Shown here: one piece after another, positions 1,565-27,730 of the stretch | How positions within the stretch are numbered: position 1 is the stretch's first letter | Layout: every line of letters starts with the position of its first letter | Assembly (NCBI GenBank): GCA_030602715.1 | Contig: JAUVZD010000012.1 | Span: 46,242-110,241, forward strand | Direction: 5' to 3' | DNA length: 64,000 bases | Source: Candidatus Coatesiibacteriota bacterium | Lineage (GTDB): Bacteria; RBG-13-66-14; B26-G2; JAUVZD01 | Translations under genes and position numbers: made by a program | Notes under the pieces: model-generated | What the model saw: the letters and a program-made list of their open reading frames with translations, nothing else | The model's database searches: none | What the model was told of the DNA's origin: nothing

Positions 1565-1630
1565 ACTAAACGAACGATGAAGACTACAAACCCTTTCTTT
1601 TTCCACGAGGGAATTAAGGAGTTGATTAGA

Positions 1631-2533
1631 ATGAAAAAGATAATCACTATTATCCCACTATTGGTACTATTAGGGTTCTTAATTTTCTTATCAGCATGTG
1701 ATGAGTTTTCACCACATACGATGATACAACTAACCTTCCAAGATGAGATACATGCTAGATCCCCTGTATGGTCTCCTGAAGGGAGTAAAATCGTTTTCTA
1801 TGGTGGAACCTATGAAAGTTGGGGACTCTGGACCATGGACCCACAAGGGGATAACTTCTATCTAATATTAGACAGAGACAGCTTCATTCCTCCCGCACAT
1901 GAATTCATCCCCAACGACTTCAGCGACGACAGCTATCTCCTGTTCTCAGACGATTTGGACAATATCTACTATTTATCCCTCGCAGGAGGCGACCCGGTCT
2001 TTATCTGTGAGGGCTCAAGCCCCACAATCAAGGGCAACCTGGATGGAACCTATAACATCGCCTATTTTGATTCCAACAGCAAAGGACCAGATAGCACCAG
2101 TGGAATATACTTAACCGATATTCACGGCTCCGAACCACAATTGCTGATTCCTGACGGCGGCCACCCTCACTGGTCACACAATGGAAGCAAGCTGGTATTC
2201 GCAAATCAGGAAAAACTCTGGATAATGGATATGAATACCACCGAGACGACTCTCCTCTATGACAGCAGTGAAGGTTACAGTAGTGCATGTTACCCACGAT
2301 GGTCTCAAGGCGGATATTGGATAGCTTTCTGTATGTGGTCAAAAGAAACTTTTAACTGGGAAATCTTCATAATCCCCTCATCAGGTGGCAACCCAACTAG
2401 ATTGACAGAACTCCCTTATGACCCAGATTTTGAACCTCCTCCCCCCAATTCTCTGTCCTGGTCTCCTGAAGGTAAGTGGATAGTATTTGAGCGAAGTATC
2501 AATTGCGAACTTTGGAAGGTGAGCGTGGAGTAG
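1631..2533 (+). CDS. Lipoprotein with TolB/WD40-like (PD40) beta-propeller repeats
   Basis: MKKIITIIPLLVLLGFLIFLSAC lipobox; repeated 'PVWSPEGSKIVF', 'PHWSHNGSKLVF', 'LSWSPEGKWIVFER'. ORF opens at 1577, but the signal peptide suggests a start at 1631. Confidence 0.75.
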   Translation: MKKIITIIPLLVLLGFLIFLSACDEFSPHTMIQLTFQDEIHARSPVWSPEGSKIVFYGGTYESWGLWTMDPQGDNFYLILDRDSFIPPAHEFIPNDFSDDSYLLFSDDLDNIYYLSLAGGDPVFICEGSSPTIKGNLDGTYNIAYFDSNSKGPDSTSGIYLTDIHGSEPQLLIPDGGHPHWSHNGSKLVFANQEKLWIMDMNTTETTLLYDSSEGYSSACYPRWSQGGYWIAFCMWSKETFNWEIFIIPSSGGNPTRLTELPYDPDFEPPPPNSLSWSPEGKWIVFERSINCELWKVSVE

Positions 2534-2557
2534 TTTGGGGGATGTTGGAACATATTC

Positions 2558-2582
2558 GGGGGCGGGAAAATTCTCCGCCCCC
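2558..2582 (+). terminator. GC-rich hairpin downstream of lipoprotein gene (possible terminator, no strong U tract)
   Basis: GGGGGCGG (2558-2565) ... CCGCCCCC (2575-2582). Confidence 0.35.
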
Positions 2583-2643
2583 GGTCTATCCGAATGTCGC
2601 AAGATAGTTTTCGCACCATAAAGGCAAAAAGGAGTTGATAGGT

Positions 2644-3570
2644 ATGAAGAACACAATCACATTCACAGTCCTTGGGGGACTTTTAGGGCTCGCTCTACTT
2701 CTTTGGGGATGTTCGGAGGAATATGACAGCGTCTCATCCAAAACGCCTCAATTAATCTTTGATGAGATAGACGCGGAACATCCCGTATGGTCTCCTTTGG
2801 GGGATACTATCGTCTTCTCAGGAGGGAATGGATACGGCGGAGACCTTTGGACTATAGACCCCCAGGGGGGAAATCTGAGCCTCCTTTTGACCTGTGAGGA
2901 GGTCGACCCGCCAGCATACGCTCTCTACCCCTACGATTACAGTGACGATGGCTACCTTCTTTTTACAGGCGGTTTGTATGAAGTCTACTACCTACTTCCA
3001 GGGGGGAAAGAACCAGTATATTTATTCCCGGGTTCATATCCTACAGTTGAAGGCAGCCTGAACGGAAACTACAACATCGCCTACCTTATCCCTGAAAAGG
3101 ATGGTATATACTTGTCCGACATCCACGGCTCCGAACCCCAGTTGGTGGTGGAGGGAGACTTCATATACGGTATTGATTGGTCTCCAGATGGGACTATGTT
3201 AACCTACATAAGAGGGATACATCTTGGACAAAGCGATTGGGACTACGAACTGTGCGTCTATGATTTTACCACCCAGAGCGAGCAAGTAATTTATGACACC
3301 GGCTACGCTCCCAAATGCCCCCGTTGGTCTCCAGATGGAACTTTGATAGCATTTGCCGACCAATACTATCCAGAGCCGGGCTATGATTATCCAATGCATA
3401 GGGTTGTATGGATTATTCCCTCAGAAGGCGGAGAACCCAAAAGAATCACCAATTTCCCCTACGGCCCCATAGATTCGCCGGGGGTCTCATGGCTCTCCTG
3501 GTCCCCGGATGGAAAATGGATTGTATACGACCTTATAACAAGCGAACTCTGGAAGGTGTATGTAGACTAG
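2644..3570 (+). CDS. Lipoprotein with TolB/WD40-like repeats; tandem paralog of the preceding gene
   Basis: Lipobox 'LLLWGCSEEYD'; 'HPVWSPLGDTIVFSGGNGYGGDLWTIDPQGGNLSLLL' parallels 'SPVWSPEGSKIVFYGGTYESWGLWTMDPQGDNFYLIL' in the upstream gene. Confidence 0.75.
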   Translation: MKNTITFTVLGGLLGLALLLWGCSEEYDSVSSKTPQLIFDEIDAEHPVWSPLGDTIVFSGGNGYGGDLWTIDPQGGNLSLLLTCEEVDPPAYALYPYDYSDDGYLLFTGGLYEVYYLLPGGKEPVYLFPGSYPTVEGSLNGNYNIAYLIPEKDGIYLSDIHGSEPQLVVEGDFIYGIDWSPDGTMLTYIRGIHLGQSDWDYELCVYDFTTQSEQVIYDTGYAPKCPRWSPDGTLIAFADQYYPEPGYDYPMHRVVWIIPSEGGEPKRITNFPYGPIDSPGVSWLSWSPDGKWIVYDLITSELWKVYVD

Positions 3571-3603
3571 GTGAGGAGGCGTTGGTAGTATCGCACATTC
3601 AGA

Positions 3604-3624
3604 GGCGGGGAATAGTTCTCCGCC
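3604..3624 (+). terminator. Hairpin downstream of the second lipoprotein gene
   Basis: GGCGGGGAA-TAG-TTCTCCGCC; resembles the hairpin at 2558-2582. Confidence 0.35.
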
Positions 3625-3687
3625 CCTTAGGAAAATTAGAGGAGTTTATAGAATTTACTTGGATTAGCTAACAAGCGATTCCGCAGG

Positions 3688-5193
3688 TCATACTTTTCTT
3701 CTGTATAGATGGAAGTACCTGTCCCCCTCACCACCATCACCGGTGGGGAAAGCTTTTTCAAAACTGTAGTTCTCCTTGAAATCGGGATGCTCATAGATCG
3801 CCCGTCCCCCCTCCCAGACGAAAGAGGACACATCCCCATCATCATCAACGGCGCTGTGGAAGAGAACGATATAGTATGGGTTCAGCGACAGGACATAGTC
3901 CGGGTCGCCTTTTTCAATTCCTCCGGGAAGATGCGCTATATGATAGTCATTTATGCCCATGGTATCAATGACATATCTGTCGGTATAATATGGCAGAATG
4001 CCGGCGCCGCTGAAGGCTACCTTCTCATCTCGGGGGCAATTTTCGTCAATATAGACCCCGACCTGCTTGGTAATTTCAACTGCGGTCGTCTCTTTATTTT
4101 CCCCGGTAATTAGTTTCTCAATTGAATACTGGTGGACCACTCCATACAGATTGAACGACAATATAAATATAATAAATATATATAGAATCTTCTCGCTCAC
4201 CCTAAACTCCCTGCAAATATAGTATATCGCCCAGCCGACAACATAGCCCAGGAGGGGAATGAGAACCTGATAGAAGCGGTGCTGGGGCATCCAATCCCCA
4301 CCGACGATGGTTACATAACCTACAACTCCAATAAAAATAAAGAGTAAATACCAGTCCTTCCTCTTATAAAGCCCGAAGATGAAAAGAAATATCCAGATAA
4401 GATTCTCCTTCAAAAAGGTTATAATGTAAATAACCCCCTCTTTGAGCTCCATCAGCCCAAACGATGTCTTGGCGTAATAGGGATTGGGGAGAGGGGAGCG
4501 ATAATACCAGAACCGCCAGCTGAAATATATGGCGAATATTATTATGGCGATGACCCCGCTCAGGATTACCTCTCTTTTGACCTTCTTCTCCTTCAGGCTA
4601 ATTATGAATGATGACAACAAGACTATCCCCGCATAGACAAAGCCGTCCGAGCGGGTGAGAATGAGCGTCCCCAGAAGCAGTCCCCCGGCGATGAAATTGA
4701 ATTTAAGGTATCTCAGCGAGAATACTGAAAGGAAGAAAGCGGTCACGAACAGTTGTGTTTCCAAGCCTGAGGTGATATAGAAAAAGATGCTCAGGCTGGT
4801 AACGATAGGTAGCAAGCCAAATAGCAGGTAGGGAGAACGGTCTTTAGCATCGCCAATCGCCTGCTTATAATAAATTTTAAGGAGAAAGAAGATCAGAATG
4901 ACCAGGAGAATTACGGAGAGAATTGAGGAGAAAACCAACGGGTTGATGCCCAACCATAAACCCAGCGCGTTTAGAAGCATCCACAGGAAATTGCTGTATC
5001 CCTCAACCCTGTCCCCGGGGTTATATACTGCTCCGTCTCCGTTTACGAGGTTCCGAGCATACCTGAACGTGGTATAGGCGTCGTCTATCGGTATGCCCCA
5101 GGTAGCATAGGTATTGAATATAATTAGAAGAAGACAAATAATCAGAATTGCCTTCCCCAACCGACCTGACCAGAAGAATTTTAAAGTATCCAT
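3688..5193 (-). CDS. Polytopic membrane protein, GT-C-superfamily-like glycosyltransferase
   Basis: Many hydrophobic segments; N-terminal 'GIPIDDAYTTFRYARNLVNGDGAVYNPGDRVEGYSNFLW' (DD motif in first loop); 'GGDWMPQHRFYQVLIPL'. Confidence 0.6.
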   Translation of the reverse strand: MDTLKFFWSGRLGKAILIICLLLIIFNTYATWGIPIDDAYTTFRYARNLVNGDGAVYNPGDRVEGYSNFLWMLLNALGLWLGINPLVFSSILSVILLVILIFFLLKIYYKQAIGDAKDRSPYLLFGLLPIVTSLSIFFYITSGLETQLFVTAFFLSVFSLRYLKFNFIAGGLLLGTLILTRSDGFVYAGIVLLSSFIISLKEKKVKREVILSGVIAIIIFAIYFSWRFWYYRSPLPNPYYAKTSFGLMELKEGVIYIITFLKENLIWIFLFIFGLYKRKDWYLLFIFIGVVGYVTIVGGDWMPQHRFYQVLIPLLGYVVGWAIYYICREFRVSEKILYIFIIFILSFNLYGVVHQYSIEKLITGENKETTAVEITKQVGVYIDENCPRDEKVAFSGAGILPYYTDRYVIDTMGINDYHIAHLPGGIEKGDPDYVLSLNPYYIVLFHSAVDDDGDVSSFVWEGGRAIYEHPDFKENYSFEKAFPTGDGGEGDRYFHLYRRKV

Positions 5194-5229
5194 AATTGCA
5201 TTCCTATAAGCATACTCTTAAAAAATCGG

Positions 5230-6801
5230 TTAATCGGACCAAATCTCCTCTCTTTTGAACAGGTAATATCCCACATCCTTTAGCGGATGAATCCACTCCT
5301 TATGCAAAGCGTAATTCTTCTGGAACAGCGGGTGATAGTATAACTCCTCCGCTCCACCCCACACAAAGTGTATCCCCGCCTCATCCATCTTCGGTTTTGA
5401 ATACATCATAATGTATAAGGGCTTCTTGGAGAGAACATACTCCACATCCCAGTTCTTATGAAGTCCCCTTCCCAGAGAGGCGATGTGCTTATCGTTAAGT
5501 CCGGTCATATCTATCGTATATCTTTGGGAATAATAGGGCACCATCCCCGCAAAATTGACCGCAATCTTATCATCCTCATCCGAGTGGTTCTTAATGTATA
5601 GCCCTATATCCTTCATTATTACGATATCCTCATGATATTTCGCCTCCATGTGGAATATCTTCCTCAGGGACATAGCATTGGTCAGAGCGAGGAGGTTGAT
5701 AGCCACCAACATTAGAATTACAACGGAGATTATCACCTTGAATCTTTTCACATATTGCGCCAGCTTTATCGCACCGATGCCGGCAAACAGGCAAAAGATT
5801 GGGATGAGGGGAATGTAGAACCTCTCATGGGGCATCCAATCCCCACCAATATAGGTGATGTATATCATCACCGATATAATCAGTATTATGTAGTGGATGT
5901 TTTCTTTGATTGAGCGATGGAATAGACCGACCAGGCTGAAGAGCATGACAAGCCCCATAGACGAGAGAAATTGTATGGTATATACAAAACCTAAGACCTC
6001 CTGTTCATAACTCAATGCGGTGGTCTTGGCATAATATGTATTGGGCAGTAGTTCGTGGTAATAAGACCATCTCCACCCCAGATAAATTAAAACGGCTATA
6101 ACAAATATTCCCAGATTGATGAAAAAATCCCTCAAGGATTCACGTTTAACCAAGGTTTTTATAAACAAGGCAAAGAGCAGTATTCCTGCATAGACGAACC
6201 CATCGGCCCGAATGAGGAGTAAGAAGACGAGAAGAAGTGACCACAAATATCGCCACTTTCTGCTTGTTATTTTCTCCCAGAATACCGCCAAAAAGAAGAT
6301 GGTGCAGAAGAATATGGTCTCAAGACCGGAATTCATATGTAGAAAAAACCTTCCATCAACCGCCAATAAGAGAAGACCGAATATGGCAAAGCAGGCGAAG
6401 TTGACAATTTGAGCGTCCTCTCTTGCCAGGCGATCAACCTCCTTTTGAAGCGCCTTTATAAAAACCGCCACCAAAAGAAAATAGAGAGCCATTGATAATA
6501 TGATTGAGAAATATATGGGGTCTTCGCACCCGAAATAGAAGGGAATGCTATTTATGAGCACCCACAGGAAATTGCTGTATCCCTCCACCCGTTCTCCGAG
6601 GTTATAGACCAGTCCATTCCCCTCGGCGAGATTTTGGGCATATCTATAACTTATATAGGCATCGTCCGTCGGATAGAACCAGGTCCCATATAAATAAAAA
6701 ATCACTAAAACTAGTGAGAGGATCAGGATAGCCCTGGCAAACCCACCCTTTGCCCTGATTATGTTTGTTTTCCCGTCAATCATAGATGGGAATTTTATCA
6801 T
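5230..6801 (-). CDS. Polytopic membrane protein, GT-C-like glycosyltransferase; tandem paralog of 3688-5193
   Basis: 'YPTDDAYISYRYAQNLAEGNGLVYNLGERVEGYSNFLW' and 'GGDWMPHERFYIPLIPI' shared with the neighbour. Confidence 0.6.
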   Translation of the reverse strand: MIKFPSMIDGKTNIIRAKGGFARAILILSLVLVIFYLYGTWFYPTDDAYISYRYAQNLAEGNGLVYNLGERVEGYSNFLWVLINSIPFYFGCEDPIYFSIILSMALYFLLVAVFIKALQKEVDRLAREDAQIVNFACFAIFGLLLLAVDGRFFLHMNSGLETIFFCTIFFLAVFWEKITSRKWRYLWSLLLVFLLLIRADGFVYAGILLFALFIKTLVKRESLRDFFINLGIFVIAVLIYLGWRWSYYHELLPNTYYAKTTALSYEQEVLGFVYTIQFLSSMGLVMLFSLVGLFHRSIKENIHYIILIISVMIYITYIGGDWMPHERFYIPLIPIFCLFAGIGAIKLAQYVKRFKVIISVVILMLVAINLLALTNAMSLRKIFHMEAKYHEDIVIMKDIGLYIKNHSDEDDKIAVNFAGMVPYYSQRYTIDMTGLNDKHIASLGRGLHKNWDVEYVLSKKPLYIMMYSKPKMDEAGIHFVWGGAEELYYHPLFQKNYALHKEWIHPLKDVGYYLFKREEIWSD

Positions 6802-20457: not shown

Positions 20458-21528
20458 TCAGGACACCTTGGCCAGCTTATCAGCCTTCTCCTTAGCCATC
20501 AGGGCTTCAATAATCTGGTCAAATCCGCCCTCCATAACCCGTTCCAGGGTATAGAGGGTGAGGTCCAGGCGATGGTCGCTGACCCTGTTCTGGGGGAAGT
20601 TATAGGTGCGGATGCGCTCGGAGCGGTCGCCGGATTTCACCTGTGCCCGCCTTTCACTGGAACGTTCCGCCTCGGCTTCCGCCTGAGCCATATCGTAGAG
20701 GCGGGCTCTGAGAATCTTGAGCGCCTTGGCTTTGTTCTTGTGCTGGCTCTTCTCATCCTGGCAGGTGACCACCAGTTCGGTGCGAAGATGGGTTATGCGT
20801 ACCGCCGAATCGGTGGTGTTGACCGACTGACCGCCGGGACCGGTGGAGCGAAAGACATCTATGCGTAAATCCTCGGGGGAAATTTCCACCTCCACCTCCT
20901 CGGCTTCAGGGAGGACGGCAACGGTCACCGCCGAGGTGTGGATGCGTCCGCTGGACTCGGTCACCGGCACCCGCTGGACACGATGAACCCCGCTCTCGTG
21001 CTTGAGCAGGCTGAAGGCTCCCTTTCCGGAGACCAAAAAGACGACCTCCTTATATCCCCCGACCCCGGTGGGATGGGAGGAGAGTATCTCCACCTTGAAC
21101 TTGCGCCCCTCCAGAAACTTCTGGTAGGCTCTGAAGAGCTCGGCGGCGAAGAGGGTGGCTTCGTCGCCTCCGGTGCCGGCACGAATCTCCACTATGGTAT
21201 TTCGGGAATCCCGCTCGTCGGCGGGGATGAGCGCCTCCTTCAGCTTGACCTCCAGCTTCTCCAGCTCGGCACGGAGAGACTCCACCTCCTGCTCAGCCAG
21301 TTCTCGCAGTTCCCGGTCCGTCCCACTATCATTGAGCATACCCTCCGCCTCGGTGAGCTCTTCCTGCAGGCGCATAAACCTGCGCCACAACTGCACCGGC
21401 TCCTCCAGCTCGGCACGGGCTTTGGCAATCTGCGCCAGCTTATTGTGGTCGCCAGCCACCTTGGGGTCCGCCATCTGAGTGGTCAGCTGGTCGTATTTTT
21501 GTTCCAGTTCCTTTAGTTTTTCGTGCAT
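20458..21528 (-). CDS. prfA: Peptide chain release factor 1
   Basis: 'IEIRAGTGGDEATLFAAELFR', 'VPVTESSGRIHTSAVTVAVLPE', 'STGPGGQSVNTTDSAVRITH' (GGQ). Confidence 0.95.
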   Translation of the reverse strand: MHEKLKELEQKYDQLTTQMADPKVAGDHNKLAQIAKARAELEEPVQLWRRFMRLQEELTEAEGMLNDSGTDRELRELAEQEVESLRAELEKLEVKLKEALIPADERDSRNTIVEIRAGTGGDEATLFAAELFRAYQKFLEGRKFKVEILSSHPTGVGGYKEVVFLVSGKGAFSLLKHESGVHRVQRVPVTESSGRIHTSAVTVAVLPEAEEVEVEISPEDLRIDVFRSTGPGGQSVNTTDSAVRITHLRTELVVTCQDEKSQHKNKAKALKILRARLYDMAQAEAEAERSSERRAQVKSGDRSERIRTYNFPQNRVSDHRLDLTLYTLERVMEGGFDQIIEALMAKEKADKLAKVS

Positions 21529-21578: not shown

Positions 21579-22343
21579 CTATGCTGCAAGGTCATTAACA
21601 TATTCATCCTTTTTAGTCCAGGGTAAAGCTTTAATTCCATATTTAGTAAGTGCACTTATGAGGTCTGAGCTTATTGGCTTTTCAGTATCATTTAGAACCC
21701 CATAAGCGGTAGAATCAGGTTCCCTTACCTGTTTTGTGTCAGTCCAAGAAAAAATTAGTGATGTAATATTTTGTCTGTTGGGTATATTTATTGCTCGAAT
21801 GATCCTTTCTGCTTTCGCTTTTGATGCTGGGATTACGAAATCAAAGAAATGAACAAATCCACTATTTCCATTAAAATTTACTGATGGCGTAAAACGAATC
21901 TCATTAAAACGAAGGTATCTCTCTACATCTTCTTTAAAAAGACTTGCCACTATTGGCTCAGCCATAACAAAAAGGTCGTTTATTGACAATATAGCCTGGA
22001 TTATATTGTGTTTCTTTTGTGGAAAATTATCAGGTCTTGCTTCAACAAAAATCTCATCTCCCTTACGATGAACACCAAATCCATTTAGAATTGCATTTAA
22101 CATATGAATTCTTTTTTCTGTATTAAATTCGCACCCACTTAACTTTAGGTCCGTAATAGTATAACCATCGTCACTCAGAATGAACCCATTATCAATTTTT
22201 TCCATATATATTTGCAGTTGGTCATTATGTCGGTCAAGAAAAGGAGTTGTAATTTCACAAACATCCCCTATTTCTTCCACAATTATTTTCTGTCTCAACC
22301 ATTCAATATAATCATTTACCAAAGTCTGACAATCCTTCGGCAT
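21579..22343 (-). CDS. DUF1828/DUF1829-like protein
   Basis: N-terminal 'TTPFLDRHNDQLQIYMEKIDNGFILSDDGYTITDLKLSG' resembles DUF1828; C-terminal part resembles DUF1829. AT-rich relative to flanks. Confidence 0.65.
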   Translation of the reverse strand: MPKDCQTLVNDYIEWLRQKIIVEEIGDVCEITTPFLDRHNDQLQIYMEKIDNGFILSDDGYTITDLKLSGCEFNTEKRIHMLNAILNGFGVHRKGDEIFVEARPDNFPQKKHNIIQAILSINDLFVMAEPIVASLFKEDVERYLRFNEIRFTPSVNFNGNSGFVHFFDFVIPASKAKAERIIRAINIPNRQNITSLIFSWTDTKQVREPDSTAYGVLNDTEKPISSDLISALTKYGIKALPWTKKDEYVNDLAA

Positions 22344-22822
22344 TAGAATAACCCCCTTTCAACAATAGGTGGTTCAATGATGTTGCAGTAATTAAAGAAG
22401 TCATCTAAAGTTGCATAAAGATCATCTTTGTTTGTAAATTCACCAGTTGGAGTAGGAACCGCCCACTTGTCATTAAAGCCTTCTACATATAAGTGGAGAT
22501 GAGGACATTCTATATTCTGTCCAGCATACGGGATAAGATAATCAATAATCTCTGGGTATAATTCTGGATTATCGTGGGGTGGTCCATCAATATCAAGTCT
22601 AATAAGTATAATCATTCCCCTATAACGCTCTTGATAAGTACATCTTTTAAGCCTAAATTTTCCTTTTCTGCTTACATCAATAAGAAACTTTTCACTTTCG
22701 TCAATCGAAATAATCGGCATAGTCAAAAGTTCACCAGAAACAGGAAAACCATAATGTTCATCCGTCTCCCTCTTCTTTTGCATAGCAACTAAAGTGTCTG
22801 CTTCAGATTGAGTTATCATCAT
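22343..22822 (-). CDS. Conserved hypothetical protein (possibly DUF6978-like), partner of the DUF1828/1829 gene
   Basis: 'IECPHLHLYVEGFNDKWAVPTPTGEFTNKDDLYATLDDFFNYCNI'; stop overlaps the downstream ATG by one base (TAATG). Confidence 0.5.
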   Translation of the reverse strand: MMITQSEADTLVAMQKKRETDEHYGFPVSGELLTMPIISIDESEKFLIDVSRKGKFRLKRCTYQERYRGMIILIRLDIDGPPHDNPELYPEIIDYLIPYAGQNIECPHLHLYVEGFNDKWAVPTPTGEFTNKDDLYATLDDFFNYCNIIEPPIVERGLF

Positions 22823-22925
22823 TTATTCCTATCTTTGACTACTTGTAATTTTTCCTTAATTTGACTAAGCAATCCTATATTTCTTCTTCATAATAATTAT
22901 ACTACATCTTATTCAAATTGTGAAG

Positions 22926-23063
22926 TCATTCGTGGTTCCATACTTCGTTCTTTTTTTCCGGCGGTAACACCCGCTCAAATCTATCGTCCAGACAAAGCGT
23001 CATGCTCATCTGCGCCACCTCCAGCATGCCCTCGTCCGGCTCCCATGTGGTAACCTTCTGCAT
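22926..23063 (-). pseudogene. Remnant: diverged second copy of the 3' end of the DUF1385 gene
   Basis: Minus strand reads MQKVTTWEPDEGMLEVAQMSMTLCLDDRFERVLPPEKKNEVWNHE*; 24/35 residues identical to MQRITTREPDDGMLRVALTSMTLCLDERFRRIVPP at the end of the gene at 23900-24943. Confidence 0.8.
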
Positions 23064-23089
23064 CCTTTTATTTAAGAGCTATGTGGACA

Positions 23090-23716
23090 TTATGTATGCG
23101 GCGTGGTCACTATTTTTGCTTTTGAATTGTGATACAATACAACAATGTCTTTCGGGGCTCCTGCTAGTATTTCCTGAATTTTTTTATCTTCATCTTTTTC
23201 TTTTAGATAATAATAATCATCAAATAGTATAAAAACTGTCTTCTCAGCAATTTCCAGTCTTTTAAGCTCTACTAACCTGTCAATATCCCTCTTGATAACA
23301 ACAGTTGCTACACCTTGACGCCATTGATAGTAGCGGAAGCATTTTGCTTCAGCACATAATAAAAACGGACCTCTGTTGGTTTCATCGGTAATTATCAAAT
23401 CTAGTTTTACTTTCCCAACGCGCTCCTCGAGTTCTTTTATTTTGCTCTCAAACTCATATCCCTCAAAATTTTTCTCATCGAATGTTTTATCAAAGTGCAC
23501 TTCAATACCCGAATTTCCGCCTAGTCGCTGATAAAAGAACCTTCCAAGTTGTAACATCAAATCAGCTTCATCCCAACATATCCAATGCTCATTCTCTGTC
23601 TCTTTTTCACTCAGACCCTTAGAATATTTACGCGCCCTCTCATCGTAATAATTTTTAAAATCTTCCCAAGCGTTTTTAAACATCTTTTCGATTTCTTTTC
23701 CGCTAGCATTTTTCAT
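23090..23716 (-). CDS. PD-(D/E)XK-like nuclease, possible restriction endonuclease
   Basis: 'VGKVKLDLIITDETNRGPFLLCAEAKCFRYYQWRQG' fits the D-x(n)-ExK pattern. ATG 23716 overlaps the stop of the upstream methyltransferase remnant (ATGA). Confidence 0.6.
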   Translation of the reverse strand: MKNASGKEIEKMFKNAWEDFKNYYDERARKYSKGLSEKETENEHWICWDEADLMLQLGRFFYQRLGGNSGIEVHFDKTFDEKNFEGYEFESKIKELEERVGKVKLDLIITDETNRGPFLLCAEAKCFRYYQWRQGVATVVIKRDIDRLVELKRLEIAEKTVFILFDDYYYLKEKDEDKKIQEILAGAPKDIVVLYHNSKAKIVTTPHT

Positions 23717-23883
23717 TTCTTTTCTCCTTCTTTCAGGTTCACTTTTCCGCAAACATCCTTGTCAGCTAATAAATGCGTTAGAATCCCCCAATTATCCCCA
23801 AAATACAAGCGATTACCCCAACCATCCAGACGAGAATTACCCATTCTCTCCGTTTCCATCAATGTTACTTCTTCTGATTTCAT
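23713..23883 (-). pseudogene. Truncated DNA methyltransferase N-terminus (56-codon remnant)
   Basis: Minus strand reads MKSEEVTLMETERMGNSRLDGWGNRLYFGDNWGILTHLLADKDVCGKVNLKEGEKK*; 'NRLYFGDNxxIL...D..VCGKV.L' matches the segment preceding 'IYIDPPF' in N4/N6 DNA methyltransferases; the DPPF/Y core is absent. Confidence 0.6.
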
Positions 23884-23899
23884 GCTATTTTTCCTTCCC

Positions 23900-24943
23900 T
23901 CAATGATGTTTCCTACTACCTATATCATTATATTCCATCCATCCTTCACAGTCAATCCCAAATGAAACCACCCCTCCCCCCTCCGCCTTCTCCCCCTCGC
24001 CAGCGGGGGGGACTATGCGCCGGAAGCGCTCATCAAGGCAGAGGGTCATGCTGGTAAGCGCCACCCGCAACATACCGTCGTCCGGCTCACGGGTGGTTAT
24101 CCTCTGCATCCACAGCCCCGGTGCGGTGAATATCTTGAGCGCCCAGTTGTCCGGATAGCGAGCCGAGATGCGGATTATCTCATAGGTTATGCCGGCGATC
24201 AACGGTATGAGCAGAACGCGGATGAGTATATTCTGCCAGCGGGTCAAATCGGGAAAGATGGAGAATATGACCGTATGCACCAATATGATGACCAGCAGGA
24301 TTACAATTATAAAGCTGGTTCCACATCTACGGTGGAACCGGCTGGCGAGGCGGGCTCTCTTCATGCTCGCCTTCCCAGCCCCCTCCTCACAGCCGGCGAT
24401 GGTCTTGTGCTCGGCACCGTGGTAGGCATAGACCCGCTTTATCTCCCTGGAGAAGGATATCGCCCAGATATAACCCACAACCAAAAAGATGCGCAGGATA
24501 CCGTCTATCACATTGAACAAAAACTGGCTCTCGGATACAATCGGCATCCATCTACCCAGTAGGTAGGAGAGGAGATAAGGCAAGCCGACAAAGATGGCTA
24601 AAGCCACAATCAAGGTAGGAATCATGGTCAACATCATGGAGCGTTTGGAGAGCGTCTTCTCCCCCTCACCCTCCAAAGCGACATTGGCGGAGAAGGTCAA
24701 AGCCTCCATACCCAGCTTCAAGGACTCAAAGAGGACGATGACCCCTCTGAGTAAGGGCGACTTCCAGGGGTGCCTCTTGGCAATGCTTTTCAAAGACTCC
24801 TTCTTGACCACCATAGAGCCGTCCTTTCTGCGCACCGCCACGCAGTAGTGCTCACCGGAGCGCATAAGCACCCCCTCCATTACCGCCTGCCCCCCTATAG
24901 GGTCCACCTTGGCTTTATCCTGCTTGTCCTTGGCGAGCATCAA
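23900..24943 (-). CDS. DUF1385 family membrane protein
   Basis: 'IGGQAVMEGVLMRSGEHYCVAVRRKDGSMV', 'RVYAYHGAEHKTIAGCEEG', 'PGLWMQRITTREPDDGML' are DUF1385 hallmarks. Confidence 0.92.
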   Translation of the reverse strand: MMLAKDKQDKAKVDPIGGQAVMEGVLMRSGEHYCVAVRRKDGSMVVKKESLKSIAKRHPWKSPLLRGVIVLFESLKLGMEALTFSANVALEGEGEKTLSKRSMMLTMIPTLIVALAIFVGLPYLLSYLLGRWMPIVSESQFLFNVIDGILRIFLVVGYIWAISFSREIKRVYAYHGAEHKTIAGCEEGAGKASMKRARLASRFHRRCGTSFIIVILLVIILVHTVIFSIFPDLTRWQNILIRVLLIPLIAGITYEIIRISARYPDNWALKIFTAPGLWMQRITTREPDDGMLRVALTSMTLCLDERFRRIVPPAGEGEKAEGGGVVSFGIDCEGWMEYNDIGSRKHH

Positions 24944-26196: not shown

Positions 26197-26910
26197 TCAA
26201 AAATACCACCTCATCCCCAAAGCTATGGTGATGCTCATCTCAAAGGAAGGGTATATCTCCATTGTCGGTCGCTCCTCGCACACCAGCGCTAAATGGTCGG
26301 TCAGGCGAAAATCTACCCCCACACCAAACATAATGTAGCCATAATTCTCCCCTAGCGGTGAGGTCTGCCGGCGCAGTTCATGACCGACGGTTAGCTCCAC
26401 AAAGCTCCCCTTCAGGGTGATGACCCAGGCTCTGCTCATCCCCCACCACAGCGACACCCACTTCCGGTCGTAGCCGATGTAGCGGTTCAGACCTAATCCC
26501 GCACCCCACAACAGCTTGCTCCCCCAAAAGAAGGGCAGTTTCCACCAGCAGTAGCCCTCCCAGAAATATAGCGTATATCCGCCACCGCTCCGGCTCCACT
26601 GGCGCTCCAAAGAGAAGGCCAGCTTTCCCTCCAGGGATAGAATCCTCCCCATCCGGCGAAACTCCAGAGCCTGGACGGACCACAGGGTGCGCCCGTCAAT
26701 AAAGCTGTATAATATGGGCAGGACACCGATGCTCGTCCCCAGCTCATCACATTCGGGAAGCGGTGATGGTGGCGCATAGGGCTCTATCTTCTTCCCCTCC
26801 ACCACATACTTCCCCTCCTGCGTTGTATCGTCCCCGCCGGCTTCCTCAGCGCACACCACAGCAGGCGGAAATATGTGGAGGAGAAGTAACAATGTCAATG
26901 CATATCTCAT
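26197..26910 (-). CDS. Hypothetical secreted protein, probable outer-membrane beta-barrel type
   Basis: Signal peptide 'MRYALTLLLLLHIFPPAVVCAEE'; alternating aromatic beta-strand-like segments; terminal 'LGMRWYF'. Confidence 0.5.
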   Translation of the reverse strand: MRYALTLLLLLHIFPPAVVCAEEAGGDDTTQEGKYVVEGKKIEPYAPPSPLPECDELGTSIGVLPILYSFIDGRTLWSVQALEFRRMGRILSLEGKLAFSLERQWSRSGGGYTLYFWEGYCWWKLPFFWGSKLLWGAGLGLNRYIGYDRKWVSLWWGMSRAWVITLKGSFVELTVGHELRRQTSPLGENYGYIMFGVGVDFRLTDHLALVCEERPTMEIYPSFEMSITIALGMRWYF

Positions 26911-26914
26911 CTTT

Positions 26915-27730
26915 TTATCTAATGATGAGGTCGTGGAAGTGGAAGGAGAAGCCCAAACCGGCGGCCATATCCAGCGAATATGGCGAGAGTCCCAACTCCA
27001 GTTGTTTGTAACCGCAAAAGCCGACCATTCGGGTCAGGCGCAGGTCAAAGGAAAGCCGAAACAAGGTGTAGTTGCGATAGTCCCGCTCAGGGGACAACTG
27101 CACCGTCTGCCCCTGGGTTAAGGCGAACTCCACAAAGGAGCCCCGACCGCCCAGAGTGAGGATGTAGCCCACCCCACCATAAAAGGTCAACCTCTGGTCA
27201 TGACTCCCGGGGGAATTATCCCAGACAAAGCCGGGACCGAAAAGCAGAGCCCAACCTCCGCCCAATCCCATCCGCAATAAGCTGGCATTTGATATATAAT
27301 AAGAGAGACGACCGGGATACTCCTCCCCTCCGCTCTGGTAGGACAGCTTCAAGCCGATATAAATCTGATAGCCCAAGCCGGCACGCACCCGACGCAGTTC
27401 TGATGCAAAGTTGACCTCCAGGGGAGCGTAGGGGGCATAGGAAACCCCCAGAGGATAGACGGTCACCGAATTGTCCCTTTGGGAGACATCCCGGTAGGGG
27501 GGTAGATAGGGTCTGCGAATCTTGCCCCAACGACCGTTTACCACCAGGGGGTTTGCCCCCTCTCCATCAGAAACCGTATCTCCACCTTCAAGTGGGATTT
27601 TATCCATCTCAACGCCGTTGAAAAGGTGTAACTCTACCGCCCGAGATTCCCCGCTCAATGCGCCGAACGTCCCCATAAGCAGAATCAGCAGAAAGGTAAG
27701 TGCGGCTTTATGAAGGTCAACCCTGGACAT
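26915..27730 (-). CDS. Hypothetical secreted protein, probable beta-barrel type, related in architecture to 26197-26910
   Basis: Signal peptide 'ALTFLLILLMGTFGALSGESRA'; 'GRGSFVEFALTQGQTVQLSPERDYRNYTLFRLSFDLRLT' compared with 'LKGSFVELTVGHELRRQTSPLGENYGYIMFGVGVDFRLT'. Confidence 0.5.
   Translation of the reverse strand: MSRVDLHKAALTFLLILLMGTFGALSGESRAVELHLFNGVEMDKIPLEGGDTVSDGEGANPLVVNGRWGKIRRPYLPPYRDVSQRDNSVTVYPLGVSYAPYAPLEVNFASELRRVRAGLGYQIYIGLKLSYQSGGEEYPGRLSYYISNASLLRMGLGGGWALLFGPGFVWDNSPGSHDQRLTFYGGVGYILTLGGRGSFVEFALTQGQTVQLSPERDYRNYTLFRLSFDLRLTRMVGFCGYKQLELGLSPYSLDMAAGLGFSFHFHDLIIR

Follow-up and report, generated by a model that had tools for sequence, protein, structure and literature searches.

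How did a second, diverged 3' end of a DUF1385 gene come to lie about 1 kb downstream of the intact gene, with restriction-like genes between the two? The question arises from the window, the whole 64,000-nucleotide stretch of DNA analysed here. An earlier note on the same letters ascribed the layout to an element that integrated at the 3' end of the gene and brought a replacement end with it, leaving the other copy behind. The features on which the answer turns are these:

20458..21528, minus strand: prfA, the ancestral downstream neighbour of DUF1385 (Pfam PCRF and RF-1, synteny)
22926..23063, minus strand: tail B, an orphan second DUF1385 3' end of 45 codons plus stop, the first 105 nt of which align with tail A
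24005..24109, minus strand: tail A, the 105-nt DUF1385 3' stretch that is repeated downstream (codon alignment)
23900..24943, minus strand: the DUF1385 gene, 347 aa (Pfam PF07136, E 8e-74; translation and alignment)

An orphan 3' end of DUF1385

Tail B reads MQKVTTWEPDEGMLEVAQMSMTLCLDDRFERVLPPEKKNEVWNHE followed by its own stop codon, with no frameshift or internal stop. It is identical to tail A at 24 of 35 residues and 72 of 105 bases (33/105 nt differ, 31%), and a local DNA alignment of tail B with the DUF1385 end scored 64 when the best of 500 shuffles scored 35, confirming that the second 3' end described in the earlier note is real. The abrupt start of homology claimed at the Met codon was also recovered, the alignment beginning at GGATGCAGA around that codon and stopping ~105 nt later, after ...PP. 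Tail A runs on continuously from the DUF1385 gene body, and the intact gene continues for 34 codons beyond the tail B-like part, across a promoter-like site, a stretch with no counterpart in tail B. A six-frame DUF1385 search of the whole genome returned only the full gene and the tail B match (E 7e-11), and a window-wide check recovered the same pair (E 2e-14).

A hairpin beside tail A, CCCCTCGCCAGCGGGG, was considered as a cassette end or genome-wide repeat and rejected, as it has one exact copy in the genome and others at control frequency. Elsewhere in the window, positions 1577-6801 hold two adjacent similar gene pairs (1577-2533/2635-3570 and 3688-5193/5230-6801) that are apparently tandem paralogs, and positions 26197-27730 hold two neighbouring genes whose ends are weakly similar (E ~5e-5), perhaps tandem outer-membrane-like paralogs.

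Two accessory modules between DUF1385 and prfA

The gene order (rpmE)-(thyX)-DUF1385-prfA-prmC was found in five class relatives and in most loci, across many phyla. The DUF1385-prfA gap measures -4 to 66 bp in these five relatives, dozens of other loci have much the same spacing, and the two genes usually overlap or stand within 70 bp across the loci examined. This direct adjacency, which the earlier note had expected to mark the empty site, does so in the class relatives and most other loci, and by comparison the window therefore holds an insertion of ~2.4 kb between DUF1385 and prfA. The relatives sampled were G001 alone for the order and five for the class, none being from the same genus or family, and a contig search found only distant DUF1385 loci, none from the window's family. 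G001 supplies no direct empty site because another gene follows DUF1385 there: on a short contig (L030 1065-3254), DUF1385 is succeeded by an unrelated 729-aa gene instead of prfA, so that the junction is broken in that genome too.

The inserted DNA consists of two low-GC accessory modules, with a DUF1385 3' end ahead of each. Module 1 comprises a promoter-like site, a methyltransferase remnant and a nuclease-like gene; module 2 comprises tail B, a further promoter-like site and the DUF6978 and DUF1828/1829 genes:

23927..23955, minus strand: predicted sigma70-like promoter TTGACT-17-TATAAT, ahead of the methyltransferase fragment and nuclease (11/12 consensus matches, by consensus only)
23713..23883, minus strand: N-terminal remnant of an N6/N4 DNA methyltransferase, a 56-codon ORF cut before the PF01555 catalytic domain
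23090..23716, minus strand: nuclease-like gene, 208 aa, with a D...ExK-type motif (LDLIIT...LLCAEAK) and without a database family
23068..23733, minus strand: nuclease cassette shared with a copy between mutL and miaA, starting at the RBS and ending ~25 bp after the stop, next to tail B
22896..22924, minus strand: predicted sigma70-like promoter TTCACA-17-TATAAT, directly after tail B and ahead of the DUF6978/DUF1829 pair (11/12 consensus matches, by consensus only)
22343..22822, minus strand: DUF6978 protein, PADLOC candidate PDC-M24A (PF22398, E 7e-37; PDLC04538, E 4e-53)
21579..22343, minus strand: DUF1828/DUF1829 protein, PADLOC candidate PDC-M24B (PF08861/PF08862, E ~1e-29; PDLC04539, E 1e-102)

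The nuclease gene and methyltransferase remnant said to lie between the tails are both present. The description of an accessory island flanked by the two copies needs amending, however, because tail B lies between two modules and not at an outer edge, and the accessory DNA between DUF1385 and prfA includes the DUF6978 and DUF1828/1829 pair as well. The methyltransferase remnant matches residues 58-87 of an annotated methyltransferase, in which PF01555 begins at residue 85, at 53% identity over 32 aa; the stop of the remnant overlaps the nuclease start (ATGA), and the genome has no further copy of the fragment. In module 2, M24A and M24B are adjacent, as the PDC-M24 candidate system requires, at 21579-22822 directly upstream of prfA, making the pair a candidate for defence on its domain matches. 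Phage defence has been validated for a DUF1829 protein of another two-protein system, DS-6/HipAD (PMC13092281), whose likeness to the window's DUF1828/1829 protein is at the domain level only.

Divergence of the two tails

Mismatches between tails A and B fall at codon positions 1, 2 and 3 in the numbers 8/5/20, and the NG86 method gave dN 0.24, a dS of 2.06 that is rough because it is near saturation, and dN/dS of about 0.11. This pattern implies that both tails evolved within working genes. In simulations that used assumed rates, the observed codon pattern was reproduced at P 0.35-0.45 when both tails were constrained and at P about 0.001 when a tandem copy decayed neutrally from the time of duplication, and a copy that lost its constraint after the first three quarters of the time was compatible with it (0.08). 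Tail B is core-gene-like in composition (58% GC, GC3 0.77), and the flanking cassette genes have 34-36% GC and GC3 of 0.25-0.32. On this codon evidence, tails A and B are diverged orthologs from two lineages that were brought together later, which upholds the claim that one copy is of foreign origin and not a recent duplicate. Residues of the order relative G001 match tail A at 15/35 and tail B at 13/35, which is not decisive for the native tail, and the class relatives likewise give no decisive rooting.

The shared orientation and close spacing of the copies would also follow from tandem duplication, or from decay of a former full DUF1385 paralog. Against this stand the low probability of the decay simulation, the open frame of tail B and the lack of any other DUF1385 in the genome. 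Paralog decay, which the earlier note had set against its own reading, is not supported because no second full DUF1385 occurs in the genome (six-frame search) or in 88 related loci. A second tail was likewise found in 0/88 of these loci, and we rejected a decayed paralog on the simulation and this count, leaving duplication in either form highly improbable. An assembly or binning artefact that joined two organisms is scarcely credible, since the site lies inside a 110-kb contig, the genome is listed as 100% complete and 0.78% contaminated, prfA and prmC follow in ancestral order, and an independent second locus is arranged alike.

A second nuclease cassette between mutL and miaA

That second locus is on contig C3 of the same genome (G000):

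G000:C3:369890-370588: nuclease paralog gene, between mutL and miaA
G000:C3:369873-370610 (L125 7874-8611): second nuclease cassette copy, followed by 9 bp repeated from the mutL end

The window and C3 cassettes share 73% nucleotide identity over 666 nt with sharp edges, and the C3 gene is the sole paralog in the genome. Their common right edge lies ~25 bp after the nuclease stop, at AATAA. Directly past the C3 cassette, TTCGCAGTTAACTATGAATG leads into miaA and repeats CGCAGTTAA of the mutL end; the 9-bp repeat is identical, with a shuffle P of 0.0009. In G001 the mutL-miaA junction is uninterrupted, just 22 bp separating the two genes. At both loci, then, a core operon gene has a cassette behind it, and its own 3' end is repeated after the cassette; the second cassette suggests that restriction-like cassettes insert in this way repeatedly.

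The nuclease-like protein matched no sequence family and no PDB entry in the databases searched, 385 other genomes, viral contigs, plasmids and phages yielded no relatives, and no similarity to plasmid DNA was found. The motif-like LDLIIT...AEAK, which may point to a PD-(D/E)XK fold, is kept in both copies; the AlphaFold model is poor (pLDDT 47). The two copies differ by 53/44/51 at the three codon positions (dN 0.27, dS 0.38) with both frames open, suggesting weak constraint or diversification. Matching in-frame codons ahead of the nuclease at the two loci (LKEGEKK and LKKGEKK, read by hand), a very short stretch, could be the end of a methyltransferase that was deleted at both. Neither copy has the paired methyltransferase of a type II RM system, the window keeping an N-terminal fragment and C3 at most a few C-terminal codons.

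Routes of entry into the core operons

The best explanation, to which we give somewhat better than an even chance, is that core operons took up an RM-like cassette through recombination that was homologous at one end and illegitimate at the other and that left a gene 3' end orphaned. Relatives would carry different defence-like cassettes at the DUF1385-prfA junction, and the donor DNA would have comprised one DUF1385 tail plus the methyltransferase-nuclease cassette. The other tail would already have been present in the recipient chromosome, probably together with the DUF6978/DUF1829 pair. One end may have joined within or near the homologous DUF1385 and the other where there was little homology, so that the upstream DUF1385 would be kept intact with one tail, the cassette would lie behind it, and the second tail would be orphaned between the cassettes. 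The methyltransferase would have been lost later by internal deletion, and the sister nuclease cassette would have entered mutL-miaA likewise, leaving the 9-bp repeat of the mutL end.

A junction with little or no homology, as this route calls for, is present in the window, where AAGGATGCAG follows the cassette end AATAA and similarity of the flanks goes no further than GGATGCAGA. Both the homology anchor in DUF1385 and the different cassettes in relatives are inferred; in the case of the anchor, the difference between the tails, at 31% of bases, is more than homologous pairing readily tolerates. The donor arrangement was not found among the relatives, which include G001 only in the order and no other genome of the genus or family. 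Homology-facilitated illegitimate recombination (HFIR) is rare in E. coli conjugation, at 3x10^-10 per recipient (PMC3240628). Against one-ended joining, a unit with defined ends would account better than random joining for the right edge that two loci share. It is even conceivable, though quite improbable, that the nuclease gene is itself such a unit, small, selfish and mobile, spreading without a recombinase while regenerating the 3' end of the upstream gene, perhaps in a homing-like way in which its own cut starts recombination.

Defined edges also lend weight to a different course of events, in which the cassette was inserted with a long target duplication (~105 bp of DUF1385, 9-14 bp of mutL) to give target-cassette-target, and a foreign allele afterwards took the place of DUF1385 or of its end. 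The left edge of the orphan is exactly where homology begins, and homology stops where the intact DUF1385 meets cassette DNA; the right cassette edge is shared and the repeat length variable at the two loci, and RM genes have been reported to insert with long, variable target duplications (PMC3031569, PMC1643837). Direct repeats are indeed present (~105 nt and 31% diverged at DUF1385, 9 bp at mutL), and a single uninterrupted target is known for each, DUF1385-prfA in class relatives and mutL-miaA in G001. Duplication nevertheless predicts near-identical or neutrally decaying copies, whereas the DUF1385 tails are constrained orthologs and the mutL repeat, which is identical, measures just 9 bp. 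Because the codon pattern rejects neutral decay of the tails, this course needs a second event, the allele replacement; and since the methyltransferase is missing at both loci, which also counts against it, a complete RM unit would have to be supposed. We consider it unlikely.

Integrase-mediated insertion at the DUF1385 3' end by an element with a replacement end, the integrase being deleted later, is compatible with the layout, and replacement ends would also diverge under coding constraint. Of the earlier note's reading, the insertion itself, with a second end and a clear empty site, stands in outline; site-specific integration is not supported. As had been observed, no integrase is visible in the island. 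A genome-wide search returned no serine recombinase and two tyrosine recombinases, which are both Xer-like by sequence and context, an hslU-type gene lying just downstream of one of them; the layout is thus all that speaks for integrase-driven insertion. The gene at which the second cassette stands is unrelated to DUF1385 and the repeats differ (GGATGCAGA at DUF1385, CGCAGTTAA at mutL), contrary to a single att site with an identical core, and the stretch between the tails is just ~0.9 kb. We regard this mode of entry as very unlikely.

Comparison with known systems

Integrative elements at gene 3' ends that bring replacement ends leave an intact gene, cargo and a leftover 3' end. The DUF1385 locus has the same three parts but no integrase, and no att site is common to the two loci.

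The recombination with one homologous and one illegitimate end that we favour has a closer counterpart in the T6SS arrays of V. cholerae, where orphaned effector/rhs 3' ends have been proposed to arise by HFIR (PMC5361080). There, as we propose here, an incoming module anchored in a conserved upstream gene moves the old 3' end downstream, leaving a tail fragment before an older module. Unlike the T6SS/rhs case, in which the effector has a variable 3' end, the present one would have its anchor in a housekeeping gene that belongs to a core operon, and its modules consist of restriction-like and defence-candidate genes.

RM gene insertion with long target duplication (Nobusato et al. 2000 and Furuta et al. 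2010, as cited in PMC3031569 and PMC1643837) resembles the present loci in its restriction-like genes, direct target repeats of variable length and occurrence at two loci. It differs in that the DUF1385 repeat is 31% diverged with coding constraint on both copies, and is for that reason not a simple duplication, and in that the methyltransferase is deleted. RM systems of the PabI family show operon insertion, with restriction genes co-directional inside conserved operons, and in H. pylori the duplication that surrounds an RM gene was explained by a homologous junction on one side and a non-homologous one on the other (PMC4615327). The restriction-like genes described here are likewise co-directional in conserved operons, but the nuclease is unrelated to PabI and lacks an intact methyltransferase.

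How restriction-like genes enter core operons without a transposase or integrase is poorly settled, and this genome offers two related insertions with their edges mapped, carrying a nuclease family that has no match in the databases searched and stands without a methyltransferase in both copies. The diverged, coding-constrained flanking ends at DUF1385 separate import of a foreign allele from simple target duplication. The type of recombination is already known, from RM operon insertion, long target duplication and HFIR-orphaned 3' ends, and this pair of loci is an unusually readable example of it.
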